Shown here: piece by piece, positions 507 to 4,753 of the stretch
How the letters are laid out: each line of letters opens with the position of its first letter
How positions within the stretch are numbered: position 1 is the first letter of the stretch
The notes under the pieces: generated by a model
What the model saw: only the letters and a program-made list of their open reading frames with translations
Told to the model about the DNA's origin: nothing
The model's database searches: none
Virus record (IMG/VR): IMGVR_UViG_3300047322_000594
Location: 1 to 30,098 of that record
Origin: a virus
DNA length: 30,098 nt
Strand: one strand, 5' to 3'
Position numbers and translations under genes: made by a program

Positions 507-555
507 TGGAGGCCGAGGTCGGAATCGAACCGGCGTAGGCGGATTTGCAATCCGA
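507..555. other. Prophage attachment site (att) at the tRNA-Cys 3' half
   Basis: Phage sequence begins inside the tRNA, within or just 5' of the anticodon stem (about 541-555). The segment from the anticodon loop to the CCA end is the part expected to be duplicated at the other prophage boundary. Tyrosine integrases commonly cross over in tRNA anticodon or T-loops. The partner copy lies outside the window, so the exact core cannot be fixed. Confidence 0.65.
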
Positions 556-1103: not shown

Positions 1104-1616
1104 TTATTGCTGAGAAGCTGCAAACTCTGGATCCACCTTTTTCCTAACATCAAAGGCGAGCTTCTCGACATCTACTCGCCCTGCTTCAACTGCAACTTTC
1201 AACTTCTGCTTCAATTCCCCAGCAGTAATCAGATGGATATTTACCTCATTCTTAATTTCTTCAACAATCAAGTCAGAAATAGCCAGCAGGCTTTTCGCCG
1301 TTAATTTAGACAAATCTCTATGACTCTTAGAAAATTCCTCAGAAGCAGCTTTTCCAGGCGTCTCCTCAATTACAATTTCGCGCTCTATTAAATCAGCCTC
1401 ATCAAGCACCACAACATGTAATTTTTGAATATGGTCCTGCCCGGACACCATAGCTAAGAGTCCGTCGTCTAAGTTTTCCTTGGAGGGTATCCGCCACACA
1501 GACAATTCGTTATTATCCGTATTTAGACATTTTGAGAGAATATCAGAATTAGCATGGATAGTATCGTCCCCAACCAACCACTTATTTCTCTCAATCTTTC
1601 TGACAAGGTAAGACAT
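1104..1616 (-). CDS. Cargo operon gene C, unknown function, 170 aa
   Basis: Third and last gene of an A+T-rich operon. The chosen start is the ATG at 1614-1616 because AAGGAG lies seven bases upstream, inside the last codons of the preceding gene. A longer frame to 1667 would overlap gene B by 47 bases without a better ribosome site. The protein begins MSYLVRKIERNKW, has an acidic mixed alpha/beta N-terminal half and a helical C-terminal half, and contains the segment IVIEETPGKAASEEFSKSHRD. No signal peptide or transmembrane segment is visible, so it is probably cytoplasmic. The family is not recognised. Tight coupling to gene B argues that the two work together. Confidence 0.75.
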   Translation of the reverse strand: MSYLVRKIERNKWLVGDDTIHANSDILSKCLNTDNNELSVWRIPSKENLDDGLLAMVSGQDHIQKLHVVVLDEADLIEREIVIEETPGKAASEEFSKSHRDLSKLTAKSLLAISDLIVEEIKNEVNIHLITAGELKQKLKVAVEAGRVDVEKLAFDVRKKVDPEFAASQQ

Positions 1617-1620
1617 CCAC

Positions 1621-2265
1621 TTACTCCTTATCGTACTCTGCGACCAGCTTCTTCCTATACTCCTCAAGCCAAGCAGGAGTTAGTTCCCTATTCTTCAACT
1701 GCTTCACGATAAGTTCGGCGTCTTCCCAATACTCGTAAACACCAATAGCATATTCTTTCACATCAACCCAAGACAGAGACAAGCAACTCAAAGCAAAAAG
1801 CTCATTGATAGGCCTAAATACTTCTCGATCAGCATGAGTAATAATGTTAAGCAACCCAACTAATCTTTTCGAGTTGTCTTGGCTATCAGCGGCAATCCTA
1901 GCAAACTCCATCTGAACCATCACAGGATCAATTTTGAGCCACGATGATACAAAGTAATCAGCTGAGGAATTAATTCCAGCCTCTACAACATCGGTATCCA
2001 AGCAGCGCTCGAGACCCCGTCTAAATTCTGCTGCACGCGCGTTTTGTCTATCATTATTTCTGACTTCGATGCCACCTAAATTTGTCTTAGATTTTGGCAC
2101 GCGCAACTTCATGGGAGATTTTGATAAATCAACTATTTTTTGCGTTTCGGCAACCAACGTTGACGCGACATTACTTTCCTCAAAGGAATATGCTACTAAG
2201 TTATCGTATGAAGTACTGTTATTTGCCTCTTCCCACCCATAAGAGACTGTGCTATTTAATTTCAT
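1621..2265 (-). CDS. Cargo operon gene B, unknown function, 214 aa
   Basis: Middle gene of the three-gene A+T-rich operon. Its ATG at 2263-2265 lies inside the end of gene A (14-base overlap), and its own last codons contain the ribosome site for gene C, so all three should be translationally coupled. The N-terminal third is polar and Ser/Asn-rich. Residues from about 95 onward are largely helical with aromatic-rich stretches (for example VYEYWEDAEL), and the tail is charged (EEYRKKLVAEYDKE). No membrane segment, nuclease motif or nucleotide-binding loop was seen. The family is not recognised. Codon use with many A/T third positions differs strongly from the flanking late genes, indicating recent transfer. 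Confidence 0.75.
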   Translation of the reverse strand: MKLNSTVSYGWEEANNSTSYDNLVAYSFEESNVASTLVAETQKIVDLSKSPMKLRVPKSKTNLGGIEVRNNDRQNARAAEFRRGLERCLDTDVVEAGINSSADYFVSSWLKIDPVMVQMEFARIAADSQDNSKRLVGLLNIITHADREVFRPINELFALSCLSLSWVDVKEYAIGVYEYWEDAELIVKQLKNRELTPAWLEEYRKKLVAEYDKE

Positions 2266-3040
2266 TTAGCATAGCTCCGATTTTGATCTGAACTTCTTTC
2301 TCCTGACGCAAAGCATAATCGACAAAATGCGTGAAAAAATCTAGATTTCCTTGCACAACTCGATCACCCGGCGTGTTGATATCAACCGTAAGATGAATGG
2401 TGTCGAACTCCTTAACGCCATTCGGATCACCTATCTGTACATGTGCTTGCGCTACACTATATGTAGTGTTAACAGCATGATTCAACGGCTCACCAACTGC
2501 CTGATTTAATACTGTTCGGGATTGCCACTCGGTCATTTCCAACTCAGGAAAAACTACAGACTCTCTCACAACGAACTTATCTCTAATCGACGCCAAGCTT
2601 TCTTTAGAGAACTCTCCAACGAAGGTTTCCGACACAATCCCAAGCCTACCAAAGCTAATTCCCAACGTTTCAATGGAGCACTTCACCATTGCGGTCGCAG
2701 ACTCTATAAAGGAAGTAAAATCTAGAGCCGCAGCAGGGGAGCCAGGCAATGGAATTGCCAATACATCTATTCTACCATTAAGAAAATTTACCGATATACC
2801 GTTACGCATTGACTGCAGCGTCAAACGTGGCTCCATCCTACCGGTTTGCTGATCCATTTCTTGAACTGAACTACCAGGAATAAAACCCAAGAAAAAGAAC
2901 TTTTCAAGGCATTTTTTTAGAGTTTCCTCCGTAGGCTTTATTCCGGAATAATCACCAAACAGAGAAACTTGGTACTTCAGCTTTGTATTTTTCAAATCCG
3001 CGACTCCGTTGAACATCCTATTCGCACAAACCAATTTCAA
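2252..3040 (-). CDS. Cargo operon gene A, unknown function, about 254-262 aa
   Basis: First gene of the A+T-rich operon. The longest frame begins at a TTG at 3038-3040; an ATG eight codons later (3014-3016) is an alternative. Neither has a convincing ribosome site, so the start is uncertain. The protein is a soluble mixed alpha/beta protein with a Leu/Phe-rich region (LEKFFFLGFIPG), a central FGRLGI segment, and a C-terminal part with alternating strand-like segments (FDTIHLTVDINTPGD) followed by a helix. Size and layout loosely recall the sporadically distributed TIGR04255 family, but this is only an impression. It overlaps gene B by 14 bases and lies below an inverted-repeat operator candidate at 3079-3092. 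Confidence 0.7.
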   Translation of the reverse strand: MKLVCANRMFNGVADLKNTKLKYQVSLFGDYSGIKPTEETLKKCLEKFFFLGFIPGSSVQEMDQQTGRMEPRLTLQSMRNGISVNFLNGRIDVLAIPLPGSPAAALDFTSFIESATAMVKCSIETLGISFGRLGIVSETFVGEFSKESLASIRDKFVVRESVVFPELEMTEWQSRTVLNQAVGEPLNHAVNTTYSVAQAHVQIGDPNGVKEFDTIHLTVDINTPGDRVVQGNLDFFTHFVDYALRQEKEVQIKIGAMLNEIK

Positions 3041-3777: not shown

Positions 3778-4293
3778 TCAACGACCCACTTCCCTGACAT
3801 ATGCCTGGCACGCGGCCAGCGCGATCAATCCTTGGTCGCCGGTGTCGGTGATTCCGATAATTCGTTGAGCATGCGCTGGGTCAAGTCTGGCGCGCGCTCC
3901 TCCATGAACCACGCCGCCGGCGCCGGTACCGGCTGGCACTGCGCAGCCACTGGCTGAATCTGCCGCATCGAGAAGGACTGACAGCCGCAAATCAGAAGTG
4001 GCAAGGCGATCGCGTAAGCGAGCCTGGTCTTTTTGAACATTGATCAATGCCTCATGATGGGTTTGGTCACTTGCCGACAAGCGCTGCTCAAGCGCCAGCC
4101 GCTTGTCCTGATCGGCACGGACTTGGGCGGCAGCCGCATTACTGATAGCGGTTAGGTCTGCCTGATGCGTGCCGGACTGCTCGGCCAGCTGCTTACCGTA
4201 GCGCCAGTCCTGCACTTTCCAAATTCCGCCGGCGGTGGTCAGCAGCAACGCCAGCGTTCCAGCCAGTGCCAGCTTCAAAGTGCCCGGACTCAT
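3778..4293 (-). CDS. Rz: Inner-membrane spanin (Rz-like), 171 aa
   Basis: Rz-type i-spanins bridge the inner membrane to an outer-membrane lipoprotein and fuse the envelopes in the last step of lysis. The ATG at 4291-4293 overlaps the endolysin stop (ATGA), which fixes the start and implies coupling. Residues 6-24 form an N-terminal membrane anchor (LKLALAGTLALLLTTAGG), followed by a long Gln/Ala/Arg-rich periplasmic coiled coil (about 35-105). The C-terminal part reads through the region that also encodes Rz1 in another frame. Order endolysin-Rz-Rz1 is the standard lysis cassette. Similarity looks closest to the DUF2514-type Rz proteins common in Pseudomonas phages. Confidence 0.85.
   Translation of the reverse strand: MSPGTLKLALAGTLALLLTTAGGIWKVQDWRYGKQLAEQSGTHQADLTAISNAAAAQVRADQDKRLALEQRLSASDQTHHEALINVQKDQARLRDRLATSDLRLSVLLDAADSASGCAVPAGTGAGGVVHGGARARLDPAHAQRIIGITDTGDQGLIALAACQAYVREVGR
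3825..4040 (-). CDS. Rz1: Outer-membrane spanin lipoprotein (Rz1-like), nested in Rz, 71 aa
   Basis: The whole gene lies inside the Rz gene in a different frame, as lambda Rz1 does. It starts MFKKTR, followed by a hydrophobic stretch ending in a lipobox ICGC with the modified cysteine at residue 20. The mature part is short and Pro/Gln/Ala-rich (QPVAAQCQPVPAPAAW), typical of o-spanins, and pairs with the C terminus of Rz across the periplasm. GAGG lies about ten bases upstream of the ATG. The full nesting, lipobox and proline-rich mature part together make the assignment firm despite low sequence conservation in the family. Confidence 0.85.
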   Translation of the reverse strand: MFKKTRLAYAIALPLLICGCQSFSMRQIQPVAAQCQPVPAPAAWFMEERAPDLTQRMLNELSESPTPATKD

Positions 4294-4712
4294 GGAACAT
4301 CCTTGAAGAAGACGTGGCCACCGAGTTTCAGGGTCTGCTTCGCCTTCGCCGCCCAGGCCGGCGCCTTGATGCTGGTGGCGTAGTAATGAGTAGCACCGCA
4401 AGTAGGATCCGGCACCTTGCCCGCGATTACCTGGTCAGCAGCAATCTGCGCCTGGGCCAGTTCTCGGAACGGGATCTGCTTGGCACCACTCAGGTAGGGG
4501 TAGTTCGGATCGTTCCTGTTCCAGCAGCTGAACTGGTACGGTTTCTGGCACACGCCAGAGTATCCTTCGCCCCACCACGACTTGGCATTGCCGTCGTTCA
4601 CGCGGTTGCGAATGGTCCAGGCCACAGCAATTTGGCCGACCAACGATTCACCGCGGGCCTCGCCCCACAGCGTGCGAGCGAGGATGTCGCGGTCTTTCTC
4701 AGTTGCAGTCAT
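4290..4712 (-). CDS. Endolysin, SleB-type cell wall hydrolase (Hydrolase_2), 140 aa
   Basis: Peptidoglycan-degrading lysis enzyme. The start at 4710-4712 (MTATEKDRDILARTLWGEARGE) is supported by GGAG upstream; an in-frame start eleven codons earlier lies too near the preceding hairpin. The motif LARTLWGEARGES (with the catalytic-type Glu), the segment AWTIRNRV and the later CGATHYYA are hallmarks of the SleB/CwlJ Hydrolase_2 family, which cleaves glycan strands. No signal peptide is present, so export depends on the holin, encoded separately at 27716-28045. The stop overlaps the Rz start. Confidence 0.9.
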   Translation of the reverse strand: MTATEKDRDILARTLWGEARGESLVGQIAVAWTIRNRVNDGNAKSWWGEGYSGVCQKPYQFSCWNRNDPNYPYLSGAKQIPFRELAQAQIAADQVIAGKVPDPTCGATHYYATSIKAPAWAAKAKQTLKLGGHVFFKDVP

Positions 4713-4729
4713 CACTTTTCTCCAGGCAA

Positions 4730-4753
4730 AAATAAACCCGCTCAATGGCGGGT
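4730..4753 (-). terminator. Hairpin with T-rich tail between tail-fibre assembly gene and endolysin
   Basis: A 6-bp stem ACCCGC/GCGGGT (4736-4741 with 4748-4753) and 6-base loop, followed on the minus strand by TTATTTTT. It resembles an intrinsic terminator within the late operon. Confidence 0.6.

Follow-up and report, generated by a model that had tools for sequence, protein, structure and literature searches.

Three genes, referred to here as A, B and C, lie on the minus strand of the window, which is the whole stretch of viral DNA analysed (30,098 nucleotides) and is the late end of a Pseudomonas-type prophage. According to the list of open reading frames (ORFs), gene A (2252–3016) encodes 254 amino acids when read from the ATG at 3016, which is more likely to be its start than the alternative TTG at 3040. 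Gene B (1621–2265) encodes 214 amino acids from an ATG, and gene C (1104–1616) encodes 170 amino acids, also from an ATG, with a longer frame beginning at the TTG at 1667. The ends of A and B share 14 bases (2252–2265, minus strand), which points to translational coupling, and an overlap of equal length is found in the related loci L004 and L039. The ribosome site of gene C (AAGGAG, 1617–1630, minus strand), as read from the sequence, is located within the last codons of B, and the ATG of C starts 4 bases after the stop of B. Hence, the three coupled genes of the preliminary description, together with the overlap and the ribosome site inside gene B, were found where that description had placed them. 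A promoter scan upstream of gene A returned one site (3095–3067), which was not better than those obtained with shuffled sequences.

The operon is located between the lysis genes and the end of the prophage. On one side, the lysis module ends with Rz-like and cell-wall hydrolase genes on the minus strand (3778–4401 and 4290–4745), which were identified from the ORF list and from a DNA match to Pseudomonas phage phiAH14a, where part of the pair is 79% identical to the peptidoglycan hydrolase/Rz genes. On the other side, a 47-base motif exactly matches the 3′ half of tRNA-Cys (507–553, minus strand) and forms the attachment core; it recurs beside the end of a related prophage in L125. A terminator-like hairpin (473–496) lies behind this motif, and the host chromosome is most likely to its left. 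ARAGORN detected no whole tRNA at this site. The stretch preceding the tRNA-Cys 3′ half (507–585) is still able to pair with the acceptor stem, and a decayed or decoy tRNA could be considered as a side reading of the att site. A 69-amino-acid plus-strand ORF (MPNSDLLPSLLYKINENQ...) adjoins it at 767–976, and related prophages have a similar frame downstream of their lysis genes. The operon thus adjoins att as cargo would, as had been proposed, and its lower G+C content was also confirmed, with 42.0% in the region 1104–3040 versus 59.1% in the region 3778–30098.

The searches of family libraries agreed with the earlier view that none of the three proteins carries a recognised motif. There was no credible match of A, B or C in Pfam or NCBIfam, no credible model in PADLOC and no match by sequence in PDB, and no known defence domain was found in any of them. 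Protein C of the window weakly matched the PADLOC model of LmuA (E-value 3.7e-4, 18 bits, 67 residues), but this match was absent in seven other C proteins. Because it is not shared by the relatives scanned, it was taken as chance, and the operon also contains no SMC gene that could serve as an LmuB-type partner, so Lamassu was rejected. All three proteins belong to separately listed PHROG families of unknown function. Protein C is in phrog_10743 (1.6e-19) and protein B in phrog_14576 (5e-7), with the B proteins of relatives in phrog_21208, while the match of A to phrog_19817 is weak in the window (0.0046) and strong in relatives (9e-18). A literature search by accession returned no mention.

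The comparison of 14 cassettes defined the conserved positions of each protein. Protein C is the best conserved of the three, with invariant R6, W13, N36, L38, S39, W41, H99 and L105. In protein A the residues R124, E163, D212 and N214 are invariant, and R167 is present in 13 of the 14. Protein B has invariant E171 and Y203; its N-terminal third is variable, while a C-terminal stretch (KEYAxxxxEYWED ... LEEY), which its sequence suggests is likely helical, is conserved. The predicted structure of C (pLDDT 84.5, pTM 0.79) combines an alpha/beta part of three strands with a C-terminal part made of helices, and its fold had no match in PDB, where the best hit was a tRNA 2′-phosphotransferase (E-value 0.66, probability 0.15). 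Protein A was predicted (pLDDT 81.9, pTM 0.80) as a pseudo-repeated alpha/beta protein with two beta-alpha-beta-sheet-alpha halves. Foldseek searches with this model returned giant-virus proteins as well as an AdoMetDC prozyme (E-value 5e-4, probability 0.99), but the TM-scores were about 0.3, and hence the resemblance to the prozyme is a loose one of general architecture only. The proteins are mostly acidic. Hydropathy analysis indicated no transmembrane segment in the 14 cassettes (best 19-residue mean at most 1.6), which is consistent with the proposal that all three are soluble.

A faint kinship of protein A to TIGR04255, which had been suggested previously, was not borne out. At an E-value of up to 1 there was no HMM match in seven members of the A family, the model cut-off of 30 bits was not reached by A, and the hhalign probability to a true member was 0.2. 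In our reading the strands and helices follow one another in a similar order, but the likeness goes no further. The genes of TIGR04255 likewise head short operons with varied partners. In two Bacillota genomes true TIGR04255 genes (L225:1489-3174 and L226:1492-3120) are the first in short coupled operons whose second and third genes differ, and one of these third genes has a weak HEPN match. These operons may represent a further family of modular systems, in which TIGR04255 would be the constant component, and may be a case parallel to that of ABC.

When protein C was used as bait, the order A-B-C was recovered in 12 independent clusters, in which the proteins have diverged strongly, down to 10–20% identity. 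These clusters comprise Pseudomonas-type prophages (in two positions), Acinetobacter prophages and plasmids, lambdoid-type prophages, a P2-like prophage, Col plasmids of Klebsiella and Enterobacter of 4–5 kb, and a Bacillota chromosome. The loci identified in this way included prophages L007–L009, Klebsiella Col plasmids of 4.4 and 8 kb, Acinetobacter plasmids, Enterobacter plasmids of 5.0 kb, eight prophage loci (L137–L144) and the Bacillota chromosome G168. Every intact C has A and B upstream on the same strand. In the final scan the full A-B-C set was present on one strand in 59 of the 65 fetched loci with any hit, many of which are near-identical copies or re-fetches, so that the number of independent clusters remains 12; the 59 include an Enterobacter plasmid in which A crosses the start of the record. 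In the other six loci the cassette is truncated, partly deleted, interrupted or degenerate. The recurrence of the order in unrelated elements supports the view that the three genes form one operon and one system, for which their absence together elsewhere had been named as a refutation. ABC is rare in Bacillota, where it was found in two of 398 genomes. A genome search with B alone gave no match, while another search with B detected a degenerate copy in Neobacillus. In this copy (Neobacillus cucumis, L047:5511-6348) degenerate B and C lie directly behind rpsI, a transposon-like ORF is fused behind them, and A is missing.

The homology of the more distant members was supported by profile searches. 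In the Acinetobacter phages, which were found by C (7e-15), two genes of matching size precede it; B was matched with an E-value of 1e-9, while A is too diverged for BLASTP and aligns in the family profile, of which it was a training member. Profiles built without the loci in question recovered B of L053 (2e-17) and both B (2e-11) and A (4e-14) of L054 beside C. Similarly, profiles built without L137–L144 recovered their A (6e-33 to 4e-19), B (4e-43 to 2e-18) and C proteins. Since these members did not contribute to the profiles, their recovery is independent evidence of homology. Two PLSDB "plasmids" of A. baumannii (L055, NZ_CP064203.1, and NZ_CP077849.1), 3.7–4.0 Mb in size, are evidently chromosomes with an Ab105-type prophage.

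The rates of substitution showed that A, B and C are genes rather than chance ORFs, because the dN/dS values were low in two independent pairs. Between the window and its nearest relative, L004, whose cassette is 84–88% identical, they were 0.11 for A, 0.08 for B and 0.09 for C, and between L007 and L008 they were in the range 0.05–0.13. The distances of the three proteins correlate across the 14 cassettes with r = 0.93–0.95, a value to which shared descent contributes and which was reached in none of 2000 permutations. The intergenic gaps are between −32 and +10 bases throughout the cassettes compared, and in each of the 10 elements measured the G+C content of ABC is 11–23 points lower than that of the DNA around it. 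Taken together, the correlated distances, the small gaps and the low G+C content fit a cassette that moves as a whole. ABC is thus a coupled operon under purifying selection, in which the order is always A-B-C and which is inherited as a unit. Unrelated elements share it, its composition deviates and near relatives are without it, as defines a mobile cargo (moron) cassette.

The genomic settings of the cassette are diverse. In the window and in L004 it lies between the lysis genes and the prophage end, in L007–L009 directly behind the integrase (PF00589), in the Acinetobacter phages between endolysin and integrase, and in the lambdoid-type prophages L137–L143 in the early region beside DUF1367. 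On the Col plasmids of 4–5 kb ABC is the only evident load besides the replication genes, and in G168 it forms a chromosomal islet, alone between housekeeping genes. In L144, which was identified as a P2-like prophage by Pfam matches to GPA, portal and P2 capsid (PF05125), the cassette lies at the old/tin position (gpA-gpQ locus), where it is flanked by GPA (PF05840) and portal (PF04860); of the 12 clusters, only one is found in this setting. This locus of P2-like phages, which contains old and tin, has been reported to be a hotspot of anti-phage systems (PMC9122126). The same gap, 1.0–5.4 kb in size, was filled with changing cargo in 68 related P2-like loci, and this cargo gave many PADLOC matches, including restriction enzymes, methyltransferases, PtuA, AriA and others. 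The stretch from the lysis genes to the prophage end is likely also a cargo hotspot in related Pseudomonas-type phages. In the loci L056–L135 this stretch contains 303 ORFs in 174 clusters, many of which are surely spurious frames. None of the 160 related phage loci, 80 Pseudomonas-type with a related endolysin and 80 P2-like, carried ABC.

These data suggest that defence is the best-supported reading of the function of ABC, solely by its position and distribution, because the cassette of L144 stands in place of old/tin in a defence hotspot and because ABC is the sole evident cargo of small plasmids. There was no proven defence system beside ABC at the loci examined. We consider it moderately likely that ABC is a new three-component, soluble anti-phage system borne by mobile elements, which would act in inter-element exclusion. 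The other possibility raised in the preliminary description, conversion in the sense of virulence, found no support.

The main functional rival to defence is addiction, in which ABC would be a stabilisation module of one toxin and two restraining proteins that kills cells from which the plasmid or prophage has been lost. The carriage by small Col-type plasmids and prophages, the coupled operon and the mostly acidic, soluble proteins are consistent with such a role. However, three genes of 170–260 codons would be unusual for such a module, and neither a toxin nor an antitoxin family was matched in Pfam, NCBIfam or PADLOC. Damaged copies bear on this question as well. In phage B1251 and related isolated Acinetobacter phages (L035, L036 and L042) a recombination junction leaves about 52 residues of C with A and B intact, and in phage Acba_1 (L041:4712-5372) an internal deletion joins the N-terminal part of A to the C-terminal part of C. 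The persistence of phages with truncated C and intact A and B, and the occurrence of internal deletions, argue against addiction, although deletion is also compatible with the loss of a toxin. Overall, we regard addiction as unlikely.

The setting in L144 also invites comparison with 3HP (three hypothetical proteins), a system reported to protect against P1, whose three genes lie at the P2 locus and have no clear domain (Rousset et al. 2022; PMC9122126). ABC could be a distant form of this system of E. coli P2-like phages, since both consist of three genes without clear domain and both occur at the gpA-gpQ locus, ABC in L144. On the other hand, a review gives 3HP a match to PF08878 (HamA) (PMC10952713), and this domain was not matched in A, B or C by HMM or hhalign. 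Kinship to HamA was not found, as there was no Pfam match at an E-value of up to 1 in 13 proteins, and the hhalign probabilities against a HamA protein were 0.2–1.9. Neither the ABC DNA of L144 nor that of the Klebsiella plasmid was matched in 5,426 E. coli genomes, in a DNA comparison that misses diverged proteins. In contrast to 3HP of E. coli, ABC is found in Pseudomonas-type, Acinetobacter, Klebsiella, Enterobacter and Bacillota elements. Hence, the lack of PF08878 in ABC and the absence of the L144 cassette DNA from the E. coli genomes make identity with 3HP quite improbable, the two being set apart by the published description of 3HP, not by its sequence. The old and tin genes of phage P2, which exclude other phages, are similarly accessory genes at the same locus, but neither an AAA/OLD nuclease domain nor other sequence kinship to them was found in ABC with Pfam.

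It is also very unlikely that ABC serves the phage itself, in lysis timing, regulation or superinfection immunity specific to its kind. Such a role would agree with the location of ABC after the lysis genes in the window and in the Acinetobacter phages; however, the cassette is also located by the integrase, in the early region, in the place of old/tin, on a chromosome and on plasmids that carry no phage genes, and the 80 related Pseudomonas-type and 80 P2-like loci do without it. Another benefit to the host, such as stress response or metabolite or surface modification, would suit genes whose function is unknown and the ligand-pocket-like predicted fold of A with its weak AdoMetDC-like matches, but it is hardly probable given that no enzyme family was matched, no membrane segment was found and the unrelated niches of the carriers indicate no common environment.

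Under the preferred reading of ABC as a defence system, the cassette carried by mobile elements would benefit the lysogen or the host of the plasmid, and the three proteins may act as a complex in the cytosol. Protein B, with its hypervariable N-terminal third, and protein A, with its pocket-like alpha/beta fold and R/E/R/D/N set, could recognise a signal of infection. They would then release or switch on protein C, which could stop phage growth through its invariant R-W-N-S-W-H set, probably at the cost of the cell. This division of labour is guesswork. It is a more tentative proposal, though a plausible one, that the folds and chemistry of sensor, adaptor and effector are all new to bacterial immunity and that the system has spread across phyla on phages, small plasmids and chromosomes.

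The data presented here show that at least four orphan PHROG families belong to a single system, as phrog_19817 (A), phrog_14576 and phrog_21208 (B) and phrog_10743 (C), which are separate listings without function, form one cassette. None of the domain libraries searched had picked up the cassette, because A, B and C all lack annotation and have diverged to 10–25% identity, and yet the gene order has been kept across two phyla. The HMM profiles are ready for finding more ABC cassettes, which are small (about 1.9 kb, and 1.8 kb on the Klebsiella plasmid) and occur on natural plasmids of 4.4 kb. If the defence reading is true, the components of ABC would add new folds to bacterial immunity.
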